IMG/VR virus record: IMGVR_UViG_3300044535_001065
Location: 1 to 35,431 of that record
Origin: a virus
Direction: 5' to 3' (one strand)
Length of the DNA: 35,431 nt
Shown: in pieces, positions 5,001 to 34,412 of the stretch
How positions within the stretch are numbered: position 1 is the stretch's first letter
Layout of the letters: each line of letters opens with the position of its first letter
The notes under the pieces: generated by a model
The model's database searches: none
What the model was told of the DNA's origin: nothing
Seen by the model: the letters and a program-made list of their open reading frames with translations, nothing else
Translations under genes and position numbers: made by a program

Positions 5001-6401
5001 TTATTCTGCAATTTTTACAGCTAGACCTGTGATAGTAGGAGTACCCGCAGTACCTCCGTTATGCTGCCAACCTCTACCCAACCATCTCCAAGTACCTGTC
5101 AAATTGGACGTGGGATCTGCGTGTGATTCAGTGACAGTCCATGAGCCTGCAAACGAAGTAGATGCTTCTGCGGAAGTTGGGTTAGCAATCTCTTGATTCT
5201 GTGCCACTGAAGGACCAACAACAATCATTGCAATACAACCAATTCCATTGGACGTGGGAATACCAACTGGACCAGCGGGACCTACAGGACCGACCGGACC
5301 CATCGGACCTTCAGGACCAGCAACACCCTGAGGACCCTCAGGACCAGGAGGACCACCAGGAGGACCATCGGCACCAGGAGGACCAGGAGGACCTTGGACG
5401 CCATCAGTTAAATCACCAGTTACCTTGATAATGTAAAGTAAAGAATAGTAAGGAGGTAGGTTGGCATTGACACCATCTACACCTGCGCTGTCTATTGTGA
5501 TGCCTGTGACTGCAGAGCTGGTTGGGAACACCAAACCAGTACTGCTGTTTAAGTCTCCACCACCGTTACCACCGCCACCGTTCTGACCATATGTTAAATG
5601 AACGTGACCAGGATCGATAAGAGTATGGTTATGCGCAACTACAACCGCATTTGCACTACCACCTACAGAGCCGATTGGATAAGTTAATCCTGCGCCAATA
5701 ATAAATTTATCGCGTAAATCAGGACGACCTTCTGCACCATCACATGGCGCCCAACCTAGCGGAACGCTTTCGACTGTTCCAGACCAGATTGCTATTGTGC
5801 CAATTGGAGTTCCACCAGGAGCAGGAGCACCTTGAGGACCTGGTACTGTTGAGTCTGCACCAGTTGCACCTACAGGACCTTGTGGACCTTGAGGACCAGT
5901 GGCACCTACAATCTTGCCAGCATTGTCCCAAACATTAGTAGTGCTGTTCCACACATGCGCAAAGCCAGTGTCGTCAGCAACATACACATCACCGTGAGTA
6001 GAAGACGCAGGTAGTTCAGCAGCATTTGCCACTCTACCTACATAGCGTAAGCCAATCCCCTGTGGACCGACTTCACCTTGAATACCTTGTGGACCCTGTG
6101 GTCCAACGGGACCTGTGAGACCGACTGAAGAAGATGTGGAAGATACCCAAACAAGAGTATTATCTGTAGGATTTAGATACGCGATGAACAAAGCACCTGT
6201 ATCGCTCTCATACCACTCTTCACCTTCAATTGTCGGAACAGGAGGTTCAACAGAGACAGAAAGAGAGGAAGCCCCTCCACCACCGCCACCTGCTGCTGGG
6301 AGAATGTCCCAACCATATCCATTAAATTTATATAAGATCCCAGCACCAGCGTCGACAATCTGTCCTAGCGTAGGATTTTGTGGAAATACTAAATTTGCCA
6401 T
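5001..6401 (-). CDS. Collagen-like tail fibre with tail-collar-like domain
   Basis: A 466-aa protein. Residues 1-31 carry the fibre N-terminal motif (FPQNPTLGQ ... YKFNGYGW) shared with the giant repeat protein downstream. A module with [11 protein letters not shown] and [10 protein letters not shown] follows, then collagen triplets, then the shared GLRYVGRV ... [12 protein letters not shown] ... AGKIVGATG module (about bases 5900-6060). The middle of the protein contains [32 protein letters not shown] and AHNHTL. This matches the phage tail-collar pattern (P-GW-CDG followed by PDLR-KF--G) that occurs at tips of T4-like short or long fibres. A second collagen block precedes a small C-terminal beta domain. 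The family assignment is by motif; the tip location is inferred. Confidence 0.78.
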
Positions 6402-6424
6402 TGTACAGCTCCTTACGCTATTCG

Positions 6425-7522
6425 TTAATCTGCGACCTTAATGATCCAACCACTAATGCTTCCAGTTGCTCCGCCACTTCCACCGCCAGTGCCTTCAGAT
6501 CGGACATTAACTGTGTAATCGTGCCAAGCCCACTGGCCAGTGTAATCGCCTGTAGAAGAAATATTTAAATAACCAGCACCGTAACTACCTGGTCTAGAAT
6601 CTGGAGGTCTTACAATATTAAACTGTCGATCACCAGTGCCTAATGGAAGAATATTGCCAGGAGAAATTACATAATCGCCCCAACCGAGAAAGACTGTGCA
6701 AGGCATAACTGAGCCTATCGCATTCCAGCCAACTCCACCACCTGTACCAGCAGGACCTTGAGGACCAACTTCACCTTGAATTCCTTGTGGACCTTGTGGA
6801 CCCACTGCGCCATCTGCACCAGCAGGACCTTGAGGACCTGGCACCTGTGAATCTAAACCAGCAGGACCTGCGGGACCTTGCGCACCGTCTAAGCCAGCAG
6901 GACCCTGTGGACCTGTTGCACCTACGATCTTACCAGCATCATCCCAAACACCTGTTGTACTATTCCACACGTGTGCATTACCTGTATCATCAGAGATATA
7001 AACATCACCGTGCGTTGCACCAGCAGGCAGAGCAGCGACAGTGGCTACTCGACCAACATAACGCAAGCCTATGCCTTGGGCACCAGCTTCACCTTGTGGA
7101 CCTTGAGGACCTGGTACAGTTGAATCTGCACCAGTAGGACCTGCGGGACCAACTTCACCTTGAATTCCTTGTGGACCTTGCGGACCGACTTCACCTTGTG
7201 GACCTTGAGGACCACCAACAGCGTCTACTTGAGACACTGCGATCCAACACCCAACAAGAGTGTCTGGATTTACATACCAAATATATGAGCGACCTGAGTC
7301 GGTCTCAAACCATGTCTGACCCTCGGTAGGAGCGTCAGGAGGAGTAGGACTTGACACAACACCACTACCACCACCGTTTCCAGTGGCAGCAGTAGCTTGT
7401 ATGGTACCGTCAGGAAATGCTAACGGACCGACTAATTGTGCGACATCATCAACCGCAAGTTCTCCTAGAGCCACGACGTTTCCGTCTGCATCATATATTG
7501 CTTTTACTAATAGTGCTGTCAT
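6425..7522 (-). CDS. Collagen-like tail fibre protein
   Basis: A 365-aa protein. The N-terminus ([19 protein letters not shown] ... [12 protein letters not shown]) is homologous to that of the upstream neighbour, suggesting both attach to the same virion site or arose by duplication. It then has the [11 protein letters not shown] ... [12 protein letters not shown] module also seen in the 5001-6401 protein. Three collagen blocks surround the shared [25 protein letters not shown] module (about bases 6920-7075). The C-terminal 90 residues form a Gly-rich, probably beta-rich head. Spacing to both neighbours is 12-23 bases, consistent with one operon. Collagen shaft plus distinct tip indicates a fibre or adhesin; the ligand is unknown. 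Confidence 0.75.
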
Positions 7523-26638: not shown

Positions 26639-27544
26639 TTATACCACCGCTCTCTTTAGCATGGTAGAAACTTTACTTACAACGTTATTGGCACCGACAA
26701 CAGCAGACGCAGTCCAATGGCTACCGTAGAATGCTGCCCACATTGCCAAGAGAACTGGCAAACGGTGGCGACGATCACGCTCACGAACGCGAGGCATTTT
26801 ATCTAAGAAGCGACAGATAGGAACACCGATCGACATGAGAACTTTACCATGAAGATTGTCTTCACGCAATGCGCCCATCTTGAAAGCCATATGCTCTGCC
26901 CAAGGAATACCCATCTTGGTAGCCATCTTGCGAGTTAATTCTTTCTGAGCTTCTACACGTTTCTCTTTATCGCGAATCCAGAACATAAAGTCTGGACCTT
27001 TGCCATCCATCCAAGCAGTAACAATGCGTGCCCAACGGATGTAGCCACGATAGACTACCTTGTCGTTCTTGAACAACCACTTACCGTAGGCTTGGTCTGC
27101 TGCAAAGATTGCAGGAGCCATCGCACCGATGTCGTAGAGCTTAGAGCAGATAATCTTAGAGCAGTTACATGCGCAGTTACAGTTGTAGCCGACTTCGCCA
27201 GTTGCACAGTTGTATGTACATGCACAGTTAGCACCAACCTGTAAGAACGGCTGTGGGTCGCAGTTTACGCAATCTACAGGTCCTGTAATATAACAGTTTT
27301 GACACTGAATGTTACCGCAGTTGCCAGCACCTAAGTCTGGGCAATTTCCGTTGGCGCAGTTGCCTTCAGTTGTGTTCTGAAAGTAACTCATTCCGTAGAA
27401 GATCGACATATTTGGAATTGCTGGTCGAACAGAAGGTTTAACCTGACTGTTCAAGAAGCTGAGAGATGTTGTATAAGTCGGAGCCTGTCCTATTTCGGTG
27501 CTAACATTGCTGAAAGCAATTGGCCCACTAGATTGGATTGTCAT
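26639..27544 (-). CDS. Cys-rich virion-like protein, candidate substrate of the radical SAM maturase
   Basis: A 301-aa protein. I set the start at ATG 27544, which has a GGAGG site six bases upstream; a Met 13 codons earlier lies inside the maturase gene. Residues 1-52 (SSGPIAFSNVSTEIGQ ... IPNMSIFYGMSYF) match a motif seen at the N-termini of phage structural proteins (GPISFSDVNTELG ... ISMSDFYGKS). Residues 63-133 hold 15 Cys, many as C-x-C or CxxC (NCNCACNCSK). The C-terminal 170 residues (FAADQAYGKWL, YIRWARIVTAWMDGKGPDFMFWI, MGIPWAEHMAFKMGA) look like a distinct globular domain common to uncharacterised phage proteins. A structural role is inferred from the N-terminus. Confidence 0.7.
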   Translation of the reverse strand: MTIQSSGPIAFSNVSTEIGQAPTYTTSLSFLNSQVKPSVRPAIPNMSIFYGMSYFQNTTEGNCANGNCPDLGAGNCGNIQCQNCYITGPVDCVNCDPQPFLQVGANCACTYNCATGEVGYNCNCACNCSKIICSKLYDIGAMAPAIFAADQAYGKWLFKNDKVVYRGYIRWARIVTAWMDGKGPDFMFWIRDKEKRVEAQKELTRKMATKMGIPWAEHMAFKMGALREDNLHGKVLMSIGVPICRFLDKMPRVRERDRRHRLPVLLAMWAAFYGSHWTASAVVGANNVVSKVSTMLKRAVV

Positions 27545-28982
27545 AGGCGACCTCCGATTTAGAGTAGATTGGAACGTTATCAACTACCTCTTCGATGCGA
27601 TTCACGATTTTGATAGGGATAACCTTACGAACAGACTCTTCTTTGTGCTCAAACAACGTACCAAATACATCTTGACGTTCCAAAGGTAAGTCATCATTTT
27701 TAATGTGGATAGGAATATATCCAGTTATTTTTTGAAATGCTAGTGCGAACAGTGCTACGTTATCTGAGTAAGCGTTAGCACATGAGATCTTCCAGAACTT
27801 ATTATCTAGGAACATACACGCACCTTTACAGAGATGGAGCACTGGGCACTTAGGACACTCTTCACGAGTAGACCAATGTGCTGATGTAGTGATCGACACG
27901 TCATCGTATGCGTCTAATGTTCCAGCCAGGTGAGATTCACCATTCTTAGAAGTCTCCACAGCAGAGACGTTCTGACAGGTTATCACATTACCGTGAAGAT
28001 CGACTGCTAATACATCGTCTTGATCCATACCACATTTCTGTGGAAGAGTTGACGCATGCTTCTGAGCCAATAAATCAGTAGTAAAGTTATTGATCTTCTG
28101 TAATTGCATCTTGAATGCAATATCACCGTCGGTAGTAAAGATGTCCGAGAAAGCTAAACGACGAAACTCGAAGTGATCTTGTTTAGTGATCAGTGAGTTG
28201 GTGATACCGTCTTCATCGTACGCATCTACAATGCCACCTTCGCCTAGCGAGATGTTTGGATCGCCTGTCAACTCTCGGAACCAGTCTGAGATTTCTTTGC
28301 GACTCTTATTCTTAGCAGACAACATAGAGTTGAAACTAATGTTCTTGTTCAGACGAGTCATCATGCGATAGAAACCGAGTAAACGTTTCTTTGTAGCAGG
28401 ATCATCGAATGGATCTGGACCACGAACAGCTTGACCAGGACCATCATGTGAGATAGACACAGTAAAATCCATCATCATAAGCCAATCGATAATGTCATCT
28501 GTGAGGATTGAACCGTTGGTGATCATGGAAAACATGGGTTTGCGTTCCCAATGTTTGTACTTCTCGCGAATTGCTTCGGCGAGTGGCTTCAGAGTCTTCC
28601 AGTAGACGAGTGGCTCGCCACCCCAGAATTCTACCTTCAGACCCTTTTCTTCGCTGATATCTAATGTGTCTAACTTCGCCATAAAGTTAGCAATATCTTT
28701 TGGAGAGGTGGAGTCAGCTCGCTCCACAAACTTCTGTGAGCAATAGTCACAGGAGTAGTTACAACCGAGACCTAACTGAATCTTCAACACTCCAATTTCC
28801 TTGGACTTCTTGAGTGGGATCTCTTTGCTGAACACCGTCGCAGGTGTTGAGTTGTCGGCACGTTTATCTGGAAACGCATACAACAAACCAAGTTCATCTG
28901 TCAACACGTTTGTCATGTTGTCGTAAAAGAATGTTCGTTGGTCGTTTGCTGATTTCTCAGCTAAAATTTCAAATACTGCCAC
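27528..28982 (-). CDS. Radical SAM/SPASM peptide or protein maturase
   Basis: A 484-aa enzyme. The radical SAM motif is CNYSCDYC (C74, C78, C81) that binds the 4Fe-4S cluster and SAM, with EFWGGEP at 118-124. The C-terminal SPASM domain is complete: C317, G331-x4-C336, C376-x2-C379-x5-C385-x3-C389, then C401, expected to hold two auxiliary clusters. This layout is typical of enzymes that modify ribosomal peptides and of anaerobic sulfatase-type maturases. The start is GTG 28982 with AGGAG six bases upstream. It overlaps the downstream Cys-rich protein by 17 bases and follows a 59-aa acidic peptide gene. Both are candidate substrates. A tail of about 70 residues after SPASM (KNDDLPLERQDV...) is of unknown role. 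Confidence 0.9.
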   Translation of the reverse strand: MAVFEILAEKSANDQRTFFYDNMTNVLTDELGLLYAFPDKRADNSTPATVFSKEIPLKKSKEIGVLKIQLGLGCNYSCDYCSQKFVERADSTSPKDIANFMAKLDTLDISEEKGLKVEFWGGEPLVYWKTLKPLAEAIREKYKHWERKPMFSMITNGSILTDDIIDWLMMMDFTVSISHDGPGQAVRGPDPFDDPATKKRLLGFYRMMTRLNKNISFNSMLSAKNKSRKEISDWFRELTGDPNISLGEGGIVDAYDEDGITNSLITKQDHFEFRRLAFSDIFTTDGDIAFKMQLQKINNFTTDLLAQKHASTLPQKCGMDQDDVLAVDLHGNVITCQNVSAVETSKNGESHLAGTLDAYDDVSITTSAHWSTREECPKCPVLHLCKGACMFLDNKFWKISCANAYSDNVALFALAFQKITGYIPIHIKNDDLPLERQDVFGTLFEHKEESVRKVIPIKIVNRIEEVVDNVPIYSKSEVAYDNPI

Positions 28983-29001
28983 TTTGCTCTCCTAGTTTGT
29001 A

Positions 29002-29181
29002 TTATTCTTCGTATTGACTTTCGTCTATTACTTCTTTTAGTGTTTGTGCGACAGCTTCGGCTTCTTCGACTGTCGAATCTTCAGAAACGTTATCCTGATA
29101 ACTCATAAAGTCATATGGAAACTCTTCAGCAGATCCGACAATTCTGTCAAATATCTCTCGAAATTGTTCGTTAGTTAACAT
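29002..29181 (-). CDS. Small acidic protein (59 aa) directly upstream of the radical SAM gene
   Basis: Reading from ATG 29181, which overlaps the preceding stop as TAATG, gives 59 codons ending at TAA 29002. The product starts MLTNEQFREIFDRIVG and ends with an acidic helix-like tail (DSTVEEAEAVAQTLKEVIDESQYEE). It has no Cys. It fills the otherwise empty 198-base gap and its stop is 19 bases before the radical SAM GTG. Position and size match those of RiPP precursors or small partner proteins, but no core peptide is evident. It could equally be a phage assembly chaperone. Coding use is supported by gapless fit and tight overlap. Confidence 0.6.
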   Translation of the reverse strand: MLTNEQFREIFDRIVGSAEEFPYDFMSYQDNVSEDSTVEEAEAVAQTLKEVIDESQYEE

Positions 29182-30836
29182 TATATTAATCCTTCTTTAG
29201 CGATGGAAGATTCTAAACCTTTGATCACATCATCCTTTGATAATCCGTTAGACCAGACAGGTCGTCCTGAACTATCTAATTTAATTTTAGTTAAATCATT
29301 AGATGAGATGTAACCCTTCTTGTACAGAATGTTAGCAGATTTCTGTGTAGCAAATGCTGCCTGTTTTCTGCTAGGTGTGCTATTCAAAGTTTTGTAGTAA
29401 GTCTTTGCGTTGCCAGACTTTTTGGAAGCCACGGTTTGAAGTGTCAATGCTCTATACAGATTGTTAGCTGTGATATTGGCGCCAGTTCCATCAAATGAAT
29501 TTGAAGAACCACCCCATTTACCAGTCTTAGCCAACTCTCCATTCTTCTTATAGGTCTTAGCCATAGACCACTCTAGCACGTGTGCCATTGCGTGTTCTTT
29601 TGGTGTCAGAGCAACTAAATTCTTACCGTTGTTTGAACCACCCATAGAAGCAGGAATCATGTGGTGTACATCGACATCAAAGCTAGCCAACTTGTTCTTC
29701 TCCATGAATCGGTTGAGACTCGTTGGGCTATTACCTTTAACGTTATCAGCTTGACCATAAGTCATACTGTCAATGTTACCTTGTCGCTTTCTTCCCCAAG
29801 CATATAACTCAGAGAGGGCTACTTCAGCTTTTCGCTTGCCTAATTCACCTTCGTTCATCCAAGACATAGCTTGTTCTTTGGTGAAGAATGCTGGGTACTC
29901 GTTCTTCCTAGAGAAATCTCCAACCTTCACCTTCGACGATAAGTCTCTAGGATTGTATGGCATATCTTTAGGATAGTTAGCTGGTCTAGCAGCGAGTGTC
30001 TTGACCTTACCACCGTAGACAGCACCTTTATCGGCACCTATAGTGTGACTTGGGTCGAAAGAATTGATCTTCTCTTTATAGACCTGATAGACTACATTTC
30101 TATCTAAGATGTCTCGGTTCTTTCCACCAGCAGCTCTAAGTTTACTGTCGTCAATCTTGATGTTGGCTTGATTGTCCTTGAGAGACAGTGCGGGACCAGT
30201 ACCAGAAGATGATGTAGTTTTGCCAGGTTTTGCGGCAGGTTTAGCACCAGCAGCAGGTTTGGCAGCAGTTGCAGGTTTAGCACCAGCACCTGTGCGGACA
30301 TATCTAGAACTTCTTCCAGATGGTCCCACCGTCAGACCCGATCCTGAGACTCTAAGAGTACCAGTCGAAGATCCTCCAGAGGCACCTCTACCACGACCGC
30401 CACCAGCACCAGGACCACCAAGACCTTCTTCGCCGAACTTGCCAGATCGATCTCTACGTTGAGATGCTCGGTACTTCTCCATGTTCAATAGAGATAGAGC
30501 TTTCTCGATAGCTGAGATTTTCGACTCTGGAAGTCTTGGGTAGTCTGTGACTTGATCTAAAACCTGTAAGCGAGCTGTGATGTACTCCATCATAGTGAAG
30601 TAGTCATAATCACCTTCAGTGTTCTCATCTACATAGATTGTGTCACCGTCGTATAAAGACTCTTTGAAATAGTAGGTTTCGTCGTCCAGTTGGCGGATCT
30701 CAAACACAGCGGTCTGATCGCTACCAAGATCATATCCAACATTAGAGGTCTTCTCGTTGGCGGTTGCCTCTTCAATGATTGAGTCTGCGGCATCCTTCAG
30801 ATTGAAATCTAAATCGGAGTATAGTTGAACGTTCAT
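29181..30836 (-). CDS. Large protein with C-terminal HNH nuclease and shared RDRxGKF tag
   Basis: A 551-aa protein. Residues 1-115 are an acidic domain. Residues 120-141 hold the motif MEKYRASQRRDRSGKFGEEG, nearly the same as in the upstream RNA polymerase-like protein, then a Gly/Ser/Arg-rich linker and an Ala/Lys/Pro repeat (AKPA units, 186-205). The C-terminal part carries an HNH motif: DVDVHHMIPASMGG (H391, H392), NLVAL (N406) and KEHAMAHVLEWSM (H415, H419). HNH domains cut DNA. The linker suggests a carrier plus cargo layout. ATG has AAGGAA. Position after TerL is where portal or MuF-like proteins usually lie. A DNA-injected nuclease or a head morphogenesis protein is possible. Confidence 0.7.
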   Translation of the reverse strand: MNVQLYSDLDFNLKDAADSIIEEATANEKTSNVGYDLGSDQTAVFEIRQLDDETYYFKESLYDGDTIYVDENTEGDYDYFTMMEYITARLQVLDQVTDYPRLPESKISAIEKALSLLNMEKYRASQRRDRSGKFGEEGLGGPGAGGGRGRGASGGSSTGTLRVSGSGLTVGPSGRSSRYVRTGAGAKPATAAKPAAGAKPAAKPGKTTSSSGTGPALSLKDNQANIKIDDSKLRAAGGKNRDILDRNVVYQVYKEKINSFDPSHTIGADKGAVYGGKVKTLAARPANYPKDMPYNPRDLSSKVKVGDFSRKNEYPAFFTKEQAMSWMNEGELGKRKAEVALSELYAWGRKRQGNIDSMTYGQADNVKGNSPTSLNRFMEKNKLASFDVDVHHMIPASMGGSNNGKNLVALTPKEHAMAHVLEWSMAKTYKKNGELAKTGKWGGSSNSFDGTGANITANNLYRALTLQTVASKKSGNAKTYYKTLNSTPSRKQAAFATQKSANILYKKGYISSNDLTKIKLDSSGRPVWSNGLSKDDVIKGLESSIAKEGLI

Positions 30837-30844
30837 GTGATTCC

Positions 30845-32776
30845 TTAGTCTTCGTATACAAAGTGGTTGTTATTCTTTTGAAACTTAAACTTTTCTTGAG
30901 ACTTTCGCAACTGTTTAAGAGCCTTCTCAAGATCTTTCTGATGTTTGTCAAGAGTTTGTTGAGGAGTTTTGTTCTTCTTATGTTGCTTCATAATCTGTTT
31001 TGCTAAATCCTCAAGTGGCTCATACTTCTGAGCAGCAGCCATTGAATTAGCAACACTCTCCTGTAAAGACTTAAGTCTTGACTTATTTATACCGATAGCG
31101 TCGTGAACTGTGTGTGGAGATCTATTCTTTAGCATCAAGTCCGACATCACAGCAGAGTCCCAGTTCTGAACAAACAGAGCTGCGGAACCTGAGCGAGTCT
31201 TGTTTGAGTTCACAGTAGTTGGAACATCTGTTTGAACTCTAACTTTTCCTGCTATTAAACTTGAAGACCCTTTACCACCAGCACCTTGTCCCAATACTAA
31301 GGTCATTCTCTTCGTATCATAGTTGTTAAAAGACATTCGATAACCAGACATTGGGTTCTCGTATACAAAATTCTCTGGAGCTTCAGCGATTATCTTCTTA
31401 AATCCTGGTGTAAAGTTAGCCAGCGAAGTTTCTTTGAAATTGTTCAACATCTTTTGTGCTGTCTGTTTAGCAAGCTCTGGTTTCATGCCACCTTTAACTA
31501 ACTCATCCATGACCTTGTTGCCCATGGCTTGGTCTTTACCTTTAGGGATTCCAAACTGTGGTTTAGAGCCATAAGAGCCAGCTGTCCAAATTGCTTTAGA
31601 TGCAACTTTGATACTTCCTTTGGAAGAATCGAATCCCTCAAAATCAGACTTAGTTAGAGAGCCTTTAGAACCAGACAAAACTGTATAGTATGGTTTACCA
31701 GTGTCTTTTGAATCTATACCGATTGCCTTAGCAACCTCATGGTGTTTAGGTTTCCATCCTGCTGGTCTCTCCAACAAAGCAGACATTTCTAAAGAATTCT
31801 TATCTCCAGTCATTACTCCAATGTGAGCTGTAACTGAAGAGGTGGCATCGTAAAATGAGATATTCTTTTTACCTTCAAAAACCTCAGTTCGAACAAACTT
31901 ACCACCCTTACCATCTTTGTCGGCACCAATAGGCGAGCCTTCTTTATCTTGTGCTTCTTTAGCAGAAATTTTTCCTGCCTTTAAGAGCTTTTGCCGACTA
32001 TCACCATACATCATCTCAGGTGAGGATCGATCTGCACTGTGGTAGCGACCTTGAGGAGCGAGACGTGTGTCTGAATACTCTTTGCGTCTAAACTCTAGTG
32101 CGCGATCAGCTAAACCACCTGCTGCGGGATCGAAACGTGCGGCTCTAGGACCTAGTGTGTGAGGAGACTTGATGTTGGAGCCTGTAGCTGCCAACTTTTT
32201 GTCAGGGACAGAAATACGATAAGTTTCAATTGACTTAGCTGCCCAATCTCCATCTTCGTTTCTTGTCCACATTACTTTACCAGCTTTTGCACCTTTATCT
32301 TCACCGTGTCGTAAGACTGTTTTCTCAAGTTTTACTGAGAGTTGTCCTTCTCTGTCCATTTGTTTTAAATGTCCATTTACAGCGAGTGCTAAAGCCGTAC
32401 CTTGAGGTATTCCTGTAGCATGAGAGACAGAAGCATAAATCTGACCAAGAGAAGAACCTTCTCCCTTTGGACCATTTATAGCACCAATGACGATAGCTCT
32501 AGCAGTTTTATTATGACCAGAGTCGCCAGCATTCTTACCGAACTCAGCAACTGTCATACGTTTCACCGTGGCTGTGGTAGGGTGTGTGTAGTTTGGTCCA
32601 GATCCTGAACCACCACCTCCACCTCCACCTCCGCCACCACCAGCGCCACCAGCACCACCTCCACCAGAGCCACCAGCTCCCATTTCAGCGAACTTTCCGT
32701 TGCGATCTCTGAGCTGTCCAGCTGTGTACTTTTCAACTATTTGACTTAGAGCTTCTTTTAATTTTATCAATGCCAT
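30845..32776 (-). CDS. T7-type single-subunit RNA polymerase-like protein, possibly packaged
   Basis: A 643-aa protein. Residues 15-32 carry the shared motif EKYTAGQLRDRNGKFAEM, then a polyglycine linker (33-60). Downstream, motifs of single-subunit RNA polymerases appear in order: A, ISFYDATSSVTAHIGVM with D310; B, SKAIWTAGSYGSKPQFG with K394 and Y402 spaced by eight as in T7 (K631/Y639); and C, TVHDAIG with H558-D559, preceded by FVQNWDSAVM like T7 FVHSQDGSHL. ENPMSGYRMSFNNY matches T7 W-TPDGFPVWQEY. A-to-B and B-to-C distances (84, 157) are close to T7 (94, 173). The N-terminal promoter-binding domain is much reduced versus T7 (883 aa). The fold is well supported; activity and packaging are inferred. 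Confidence 0.75.
   Translation of the reverse strand: MALIKLKEALSQIVEKYTAGQLRDRNGKFAEMGAGGSGGGGAGGAGGGGGGGGGGGSGSGPNYTHPTTATVKRMTVAEFGKNAGDSGHNKTARAIVIGAINGPKGEGSSLGQIYASVSHATGIPQGTALALAVNGHLKQMDREGQLSVKLEKTVLRHGEDKGAKAGKVMWTRNEDGDWAAKSIETYRISVPDKKLAATGSNIKSPHTLGPRAARFDPAAGGLADRALEFRRKEYSDTRLAPQGRYHSADRSSPEMMYGDSRQKLLKAGKISAKEAQDKEGSPIGADKDGKGGKFVRTEVFEGKKNISFYDATSSVTAHIGVMTGDKNSLEMSALLERPAGWKPKHHEVAKAIGIDSKDTGKPYYTVLSGSKGSLTKSDFEGFDSSKGSIKVASKAIWTAGSYGSKPQFGIPKGKDQAMGNKVMDELVKGGMKPELAKQTAQKMLNNFKETSLANFTPGFKKIIAEAPENFVYENPMSGYRMSFNNYDTKRMTLVLGQGAGGKGSSSLIAGKVRVQTDVPTTVNSNKTRSGSAALFVQNWDSAVMSDLMLKNRSPHTVHDAIGINKSRLKSLQESVANSMAAAQKYEPLEDLAKQIMKQHKKNKTPQQTLDKHQKDLEKALKQLRKSQEKFKFQKNNNHFVYED
32597..32682 (-). 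repeat. Low-complexity GGN-codon tract encoding a polyglycine linker
   Basis: The stretch (CCACCT/CCACCA on the plus strand) encodes Gly-rich residues 32-60 of the polymerase-like protein. It separates the N-terminal tag from the polymerase domain and is prone to slippage. A comparable Gly/Ser/Arg linker follows the same tag in the HNH protein. Confidence 0.85.
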
Positions 32777-32786
32777 AGAAACTCCT

Positions 32787-34412
32787 CTAAACTATCATTG
32801 AATCTATATTAATCTCATCAAACACACCGTCAGATAAAGGATACACAGACATTGCAAGAGCAACTAGTGTGTCTATACGTTGGGAGGATTTAGATTTATC
32901 GTATTTCTTAGAACCAGATGGGTCAGTAACGACCACAGCGTTCGCAGCACCTAAGTTCAATAGGGGATGCATACCGTGCCTGATCTTACCTTGTAGCAAC
33001 AGACTATCAAGTCCATCGACACGAAGTGAGAAATCCTTGAAGCCTTGACCTACTGGGATCCATTCACTTTCTGAGGCAAATCCAAACTCATCTGCGCGAG
33101 GTTTGAAATCATCTATACGCCACCTGTCAAACTGCACACTGGCTATAGTCATTCCTTTTGTTTGTTTAGCTAGTTCTTCGGCTATCATACCGTAGTCTAG
33201 GTGTCTACCTGGTAGAGCTATTATGTGACCAGACTTTGCCCATGTATCATATGGTGCTCTATCTTGTCTAGCTCTATCCTCAATGTTATCCAAAGGTGTG
33301 AACACAATAGGCTTGGTGTGAACCAGACCTGTCTCAGGATCTAAAACTGACAACACACAGGCTGTCAAGTCATTCCTAGCAGATAGGTCGAGACCGCAGT
33401 GAACGGGATAACTGTAGAATAACTCGTCGTTTGGCTCCGCTCCGTTAAGTTTCCACACCGAAGGTGCAACTGCCAGAGTCAGAAGTGATACTCTTTGATT
33501 TAACAAGAGGTTTCTTGCTGATGGTTCGGCAGTAGGCATTCGGGCAGCACGACTCAACTGTGTCCTCAAGTCTTCAATGTTACGGAATACTCCCAAAGCG
33601 GGATTAGACTTGTACCATTGATTCTCGTCCATCAGATCGCTATCCTTGTCTGCCTCGTAAACGTGGCACACCGTGGATGGATCATTGGACCTCTGAGCGT
33701 CATCAATCCAGATGCTCAGGAGATCACTGTCAGAAGCTGCTTGAGTGGAGATCACTAAAAGTAGAGGGTTGTCGTGAGCACCTTGGGAGGTCGTGATCGC
33801 ATCAAAGAATGCGTCTGTAGGACCTACAATCTGACCAGCTTCGTCCAAAACTGCGACTGCTGGTGATAATCCTTGGGCTCCTGCGCCATCTTTAGCCAAT
33901 GCTCTATATGTAACACCTGTGGTGATCCCTTTAATTGATTTCTGCGACGGGACCACAGCAGCTCTAGCTGTCATGTTGGTGTTCAAATTAATCATTTTAG
34001 CCATGGCGTCAAAGACGATGCCAGCTTGCTGTCTGTTCATAGCACCAGAGACTGTCTGGGAGTTCTTCCTAGCCTCTGGACCTATAATGTGTGCTAACAC
34101 TAGTGGAGCAATCAAACCTGTCTTGCCATTTTTTCTGGCGATAGATAAAATTGCGCGACGTGTTGCTGTATTGGGATTGTCGTAAACTGCTCTGATGAAC
34201 ATTCTTTGGAATGGTGATAAAATCACAGGTTTACCGACTTGGGAACCCTCTGGGACCTTACACTCCTTCTCAATGAACGCCATTACTCGTTCAGCACGTG
34301 TCCAATCCTTGGGTTTAATCTTATCATAGTCTCTGTCAAGTGGAATCCAACCACATCTGACAGCAGATTTACAATGTTCTGGGAACTCTTGCCAATCTTT
34401 GGTGAGAATCAT
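32787..34412 (-). CDS. Terminase large subunit, HK97/Terminase_1 type
   Basis: A 541-aa DNA-packaging motor and nuclease. ATPase motifs: Walker A-like SIARKNGKTGL (90-100) and Walker B VAVLDEAGQI (187-194; D190, E191), with coupling motif LLVISTQA near 218-225. The RNase H-like nuclease follows with catalytic Asp at D342 (CGLDLSARNDLTA) and D514 (QRIDTLVALAM). Length is normal for the family. It packs DNA through the portal, here encoded far downstream. Its ATG lies six bases after the HNH gene stop, and the ribosome site (AAGGATGG) is rather distant. Confidence 0.93.
   Translation of the reverse strand: MILTKDWQEFPEHCKSAVRCGWIPLDRDYDKIKPKDWTRAERVMAFIEKECKVPEGSQVGKPVILSPFQRMFIRAVYDNPNTATRRAILSIARKNGKTGLIAPLVLAHIIGPEARKNSQTVSGAMNRQQAGIVFDAMAKMINLNTNMTARAAVVPSQKSIKGITTGVTYRALAKDGAGAQGLSPAVAVLDEAGQIVGPTDAFFDAITTSQGAHDNPLLLVISTQAASDSDLLSIWIDDAQRSNDPSTVCHVYEADKDSDLMDENQWYKSNPALGVFRNIEDLRTQLSRAARMPTAEPSARNLLLNQRVSLLTLAVAPSVWKLNGAEPNDELFYSYPVHCGLDLSARNDLTACVLSVLDPETGLVHTKPIVFTPLDNIEDRARQDRAPYDTWAKSGHIIALPGRHLDYGMIAEELAKQTKGMTIASVQFDRWRIDDFKPRADEFGFASESEWIPVGQGFKDFSLRVDGLDSLLLQGKIRHGMHPLLNLGAANAVVVTDPSGSKKYDKSKSSQRIDTLVALAMSVYPLSDGVFDEINIDSMIV

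Follow-up and report, generated by a model that had tools for sequence, protein, structure and literature searches.

A 643-aa protein encoded in the late arm of a freshwater-type phage almost certainly belongs, as a highly diverged single-subunit RNA polymerase, to the T7/N4/mitochondrial superfamily and, judged by its residues, appears catalytically complete. This assignment, which draws on sequence comparison and on a predicted structure, upholds the single-subunit polymerase proposed in the initial annotation, through profile, family HMM and fold matches. The window, as we call the whole stretch analysed (35,431 nt; IMG/VR record IMGVR_UViG_3300044535_001065, positions 1 to 35,431), covers the late arm only, and the gene lies among particle-building genes.

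The gene and its catalytic motifs

The 643-aa ORF is read at 30845-32776, the coordinates initially annotated with no strand given, from the minus strand, the plus strand across this interval being full of stops. Its ATG (at 32776) is preceded by a GAGGAG Shine-Dalgarno sequence, and only 10 bp separate it from the stop of the large terminase gene on the same strand, in line with the reported position directly behind the terminase. The gene for a 551-aa HNH-like protein lies 8 bp downstream. The polyglycine-linked N-terminal tag was also there, with the polyglycine at about residues 35-60 of the translation. The features to which we refer are the following:

32787..34412, minus strand: large terminase, HK97-type, immediately upstream in the shared operon
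30845..32776, minus strand: compact single-subunit RNA polymerase, 643 aa, P0001 (ORF with Shine-Dalgarno sequence, family profile, fold match)
32675..32776, minus strand: N-terminal tag, residues 1-34, VEKYTAGQLRDRNGKFAEMG (counterparts in relatives and inside the HNH-like protein)
32594..32674, minus strand: glycine-rich linker, residues 35-61 (shorter or absent in distant relatives)
32207..32539, minus strand: small N-terminal domain, residues 80-190, three helices and strands (predicted secondary structure, pLDDT about 34-79)
32042..32059, minus strand: DxxGR-like motif, residues 240-245, APQGRY (G243-R244 invariant, D replaced by A)
31823..31852, minus strand: motif A, residues 309-318, with catalytic D310 (alignment; strand 306-310 in the model)
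31565..31612, minus strand: motif B helix, residues 389-404, K390/K394/Y402-G403 (register from spacing, not from profile alignment)
31211..31366, minus strand: beta hairpin region, residues 471-522 (T7 specificity loop counterpart by position)
31154..31174, minus strand: FVQNWDS block, residues 535-541 (T7 NFVHSQD; the H784 counterpart is Q537)
31091..31111, minus strand: motif C, residues 556-562, H558-D559 (alignment and family HMM)
29181..30836, minus strand: adjacent 551-aa protein, with an acidic domain of ~115 aa, tag and linker after it and an HNH-like region last (its gene exchanged along with that of the RNA polymerase)
30417..30485, minus strand: second tag copy, MEKYRASQRRDRSGKFGEEGLGG, residues 118-140 of the HNH-like protein (shared motif)

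Elsewhere in the window, a radical SAM protein (27528-28982) is 89-95% conserved in most of the clade, and most of the genes around it have no PHROG family match.

Every residue quoted in the initial annotation (YDATSSVTAH with D310, K394, Y402, GYRMSFNNY, FVQNWDS and H558-D559) was found at its quoted position. A site overlooked there, APQGRYHS (240-247), resembles the DxxGR motif: GR is invariant, and the D is replaced by A240 in the window and by A in all relatives. The motif A Asp, the motif B pattern basic-x3-K-x7-YG and the motif C HD occur in the order typical of the superfamily and are invariant in the relatives; for motif B, the spacing K390-x3-K394-x7-Y402-G403 parallels R627-x3-K631-x7-Y639-G640 of T7. 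All nine counterparts of T7 catalytic residues (G243, R244, D310, K390, K394, Y402, G403, H558 and D559) are invariant in the family, including relatives at about 30% identity; the associated hypergeometric P of 2.8e-8 serves as support rather than as a blind test, because the residues were picked by the homology reading itself. Likewise, an ordered motif pattern was matched by none of 200,000 shuffles of the core, but it was composed after the sequence had been seen and several true RNA polymerases escape it, so that the weight of the argument rests on the profile and fold tests. With respect to family A DNA polymerases, motif A reads YDATSSVTAH and not DYSxIExR with its steric-gate Glu, and a Pol A is encoded by a separate gene in a sister record.

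The polymerase core spans residues about 205-643. The N-terminal domain of T7 RNA polymerase comprises roughly 325 residues, and this promoter domain has no equivalent of its size here, about 140 residues standing in its place. For the small domain at 80-190, a family search gave no confident family and only weak single-member wHTH matches; our guess, from the predicted structure, is that it may be a winged helix. The hairpin at 471-522, which is among the more variable parts between alleles, is probably equivalent to the T7 specificity loop.

Profile, structure and family comparisons

Scans of IMG/VR recovered a 95% identical copy (L001/L035) and relatives at 66-67% (L002), roughly 35% (L024/L029) and roughly 30% (L044) identity. 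No relatives were found in INPHARED, PLSDB or the GTDB genomes, and no close one among 50,697 phage records. When the L044 protein was used as query, seven weak matches (E 0.2-10) were obtained over motif C, several of them being annotated RNA polymerases or phages carrying these. The gene follows the terminase in the window, L001, L002 and L044, while in L024/L029 it is located away from the terminase, between the lysis genes and the prohead protease. It is absent from the terminase site of three fragment records (L036, L038 and L042), one of which still contains a canonical RNA polymerase.

A profile built from five sequences of the compact family, when aligned by hhalign to a seven-member T7 family profile, yielded P = 1.6e-7 and a score of 68.2, against at most 22.5 for 200 column shuffles and 13.7-20.9 for reversed and unrelated profiles. 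The alignment paired YDATSS with FDGSCS (motif A), the P-x-G-hairpin blocks, FVQNWDS with FVHSQDG, and HD with HD, leaving motif B unregistered. The PHROG RNA polymerase family 414 (phrog_414) matched the L002 protein (P0003) at 8.9e-7 and the L044 protein at 4e-4. The search with PF00940 that the initial annotation had proposed did not turn out in its favour: the 643-aa protein scored 12.9 bits (16.5 bits in an own-genome search), below the gathering cut-off of 22 bits.

For structural comparison we used an AlphaFold2 model computed from six alignment rows (pLDDT 58.6), setting aside a model from three sequences (pLDDT 36.7). Most of 320-400, 420-480 and the C-terminal helices had pLDDT values of 70-90. 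In a Foldseek search against the PDB, all 50 of the 50 matches listed were single-subunit RNA polymerases, of T7 or mitochondria. The best match by VIA-align was yeast mitochondrial RNA polymerase (Z 18.8, rmsd 4.4 Å over 325 residues), together with the human mitochondrial enzyme (Z 16.2), T7 (15.2), N4 RNAPII (14.0) and N4 mini-vRNAP (11.5), the matches spanning model residues about 207-640. The palm and fingers fold was thus recovered in the comparison with T7 RNA polymerase and N4 mini-vRNAP that had been suggested as a check, and the lack of a palm match, named there as refuting, did not occur. The predicted arrangement appears palm-like, with D310 at a strand end, K390/K394 on a helix and H558-D559 in a turn preceding a strand, residues 556-559 being modelled with low confidence.

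With the T7 family (PF00940; Autographiviridae gp1) the protein shares the order of motifs A, B and C, the GR of DxxGR, a hairpin before FVQxxD/HD and a fold match at Z about 15 over 325 residues. However, identity is about 15%, the T7 N-terminal domain is missing, the D of DxxGR is A and the H784 counterpart is Q, and the compact enzyme is tagged and encoded in a late operon. The mitochondrial polymerases, despite being the best structural matches, exceed 900 aa and have large N-terminal extensions.

A truncated N terminus and a fold match are shared with N4 RNAPII (gp15+gp16). Motif A of gp16, DATSSGLQILACLTGD, and its TVHD closely resemble YDATSSVTAHIGVMTGD and TVHD of the compact polymerase, a resemblance at motif level only, since the N4 RNAPII profile alone matched the compact family weakly (P 0.005). 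Unlike this early-gene-encoded heterodimer, which transcribes middle genes with gp2 and totals 673 aa (PMC4496689), the compact enzyme is one uninterrupted late-operon ORF and not a pair of early-gene subunits. The N4 virion RNA polymerase (gp50, 3500 aa) is similarly a second phage RNA polymerase encoded with late genes, and its catalytic fold matches at Z 11.5; yet members of its family are by definition giants that include a metallopeptidase domain as well as regions for injection and encapsidation (PMC5512222), while the 643-aa protein has no 998-aa injection region, no C-terminal encapsidation region and no metallopeptidase domain. The BFVD phage polymerases of phiEcoM-GJ1 (648 aa) and KSY1 (610 aa) are similar in length and fold and not close in sequence. 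The size contrast drawn in the initial annotation was therefore too strong: the protein is indeed smaller than the T7 and N4 virion polymerases, but other phages have RNA polymerases with recorded lengths of 610-673 aa (BFVD; PMC4496689), so that small size alone is not new.

The shared tag and the second polymerase

The tag has the consensus EKY-x-A-x-Q-x-RDR-x-GKF. It is N-terminal in the RNA polymerase and internal in the 551-aa HNH-like protein, is followed in both by a glycine-rich linker, and is absent from the other proteins of the window. A counterpart occurs in every relative that has its N terminus, including those in which the gene has another place within the head/lysis block; in distant relatives VEK...G-[RQ]-F is retained, and a tblastn search with the L024 tag gave no match. 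The simplest reading of a tag shared by late proteins would be a head-packaging signal.

In L024 and L044, the RNA polymerase gene is followed by one for an acidic protein of ~100 aa, to which residues 1-115 of the window HNH-like protein are homologous, and the polymerase gene moves between lineages along with this acidic partner. The acidic domain thus stands alone in L044/L024 and is fused to the tag and HNH-like region in the window; it may partner or inhibit the polymerase. When the window is compared with L002, the RNA polymerase and HNH-like genes show 68-70% identity (third positions 0.47-0.52), as against 99.6% (third positions 0.98) for the terminase and 95.5% (0.80) for the radical SAM protein. 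This contrast implies that the pair (window 29000-32800) was exchanged as one block, suggesting that the two proteins work jointly.

The sister record G005 (39.8 kb) contains the compact gene and also, about 16 kb from it on the opposite strand, a canonical 802-aa T7-like RNA polymerase (PF00940 2.4e-86), which lies in the early arm next to Pol A, a T7-type primase-helicase, endonuclease I and SSB. The phage therefore has two RNA polymerases; for the genome of the window itself, of which the late arm is covered, a second one is presumed. The pairing in G005 is comparable to one reported earlier: where a species has a virion RNA polymerase, this is nearly always accompanied by another phage RNA polymerase, a heterodimer (PMC4496689). 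We rejected a recent duplication of the 802-aa polymerase as the origin of the compact one, its family profile scoring the 802-aa protein no better than other phage RNA polymerases.

When phage promoters were sought as repeated intergenic words, hammerhead ribozyme cores and repeat arrays were found instead. Type I hammerhead ribozymes above the Rfam gathering score are present on the early-gene strand (L053 18376-18327, L056 2787-2736 and L056 8128-8079, all minus) and in further intergenic regions of L053-L056, with none in the window; two sister records each have about nine intergenic regions in which CTGATGAG core words recur. The large gene-poor region between the divergent arms (L054 5394-9141; L056 15247-17634) holds AAACCTTAGAATCTAAAAGGAAA-like repeats in arrays, to which L054 adds 13-bp tandem repeats and nine repeats of roughly 102 nt; among records that otherwise agree at about 98% in their early arms, this region varies strongly. 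The early arm of L053 additionally encodes an amino acid:DNA transferase (PF18724; 2061-3338) and inositol-phosphate synthase-like (661-1941) and thymidylate synthase-like (6018-7070) proteins, and from this gene content the phage DNA may carry hypermodified thymidine.

Possible roles of the compact polymerase

In the scheme that we favour, the compact polymerase would be made late, alongside the head genes, and the short N-terminal tag that it has in common with its HNH-like neighbour would most likely direct both proteins into the procapsid. At infection, the enzyme would accompany the DNA into the cell and begin transcribing the early arm, and the canonical 802-aa polymerase encoded there would then take over. 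N4 follows the same logic, with a virion enzyme about five times as large. That the protein is a packaged virion RNA polymerase, as the context and the shared tag suggest, seems to us about an even call; the whole explanation, from a compact core through tag-directed packaging, injection and early transcription to the handover, we rate slightly above even. The late-operon site, the tag in two otherwise unrelated neighbours and the presence of the second, canonical polymerase in the sister phage are all consistent with a packaged, early-transcribing role, and they count in favour of the explanation together with the 10-bp spacing. Against it count the missing gene at the terminase of the fragment records L036, L038 and L042, the moderate model confidence and the sub-threshold PF00940 score. 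Furthermore, the two compact alleles are only 67% identical while the early arms of two sister records agree at about 98% (allele and early arm being presumably paired in one of these records), which is awkward for tight promoter specificity.

An active polymerase working late inside the cell and not in the virion, either transcribing late genes or cooperating with the terminase at concatemer junctions, is rather unlikely though far from negligible. T7 RNA polymerase participates in T7 DNA packaging, the gene is directly behind the terminase, and the canonical early-arm enzyme leaves space for a late-specific partner; but in the L024/L029 lineage the gene has no such position, and the tag and linker common to the HNH-like protein are left unexplained. 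We consider it distinctly improbable that the two proteins constitute an exchangeable cassette for conflict, whether or not it is delivered, directed against host or rival phage nucleic acid, for which promoter-driven early transcription is not the main job. Replacement of both genes as one block and relocation between lineages with the acidic partner fit this idea, and polyvalent packaged proteins are known (PMC5512222). On the other hand, allele exchange is common in phages, and the catalytic and hairpin elements expected when an enzyme transcribes have all been retained. As to whether the protein is an RNA polymerase at all, chance motif matches, a DNA polymerase A-like protein or a dead palm protein could be suspected from the PF00940 score, the moderate model confidence and the lack of close relatives among the 50,697 phage records, but the profile, HMM and fold tests agree, the catalytic residues are invariant throughout, and DATSS in motif A is RNA polymerase-like and devoid of the Pol A DYSQIE, making this very improbable indeed.

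To our knowledge, T7-type virion RNA polymerases are known essentially from N4-like phages, as giant multidomain proteins. It is plausible, if somewhat short of an even chance, that we are dealing with a virion-carried polymerase of an architecture unrelated to N4 gp50, in a phage with HK97-type head genes and a canonical T7-like RNA polymerase, where a tag of ~30 residues, also present on a nuclease-like protein packaged alongside, substitutes for the thousands of packaging and injection residues of N4. If the enzyme is packaged, it would represent a second, minimal solution, showing with how little a transcription enzyme can be packaged and delivered, and a portable cargo tag would be available for testing. 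Since the family is missed by current databases (the phage, plasmid and GTDB collections searched, and Pfam, where it falls below cut-off), similar enzymes have probably been overlooked in late operons elsewhere.
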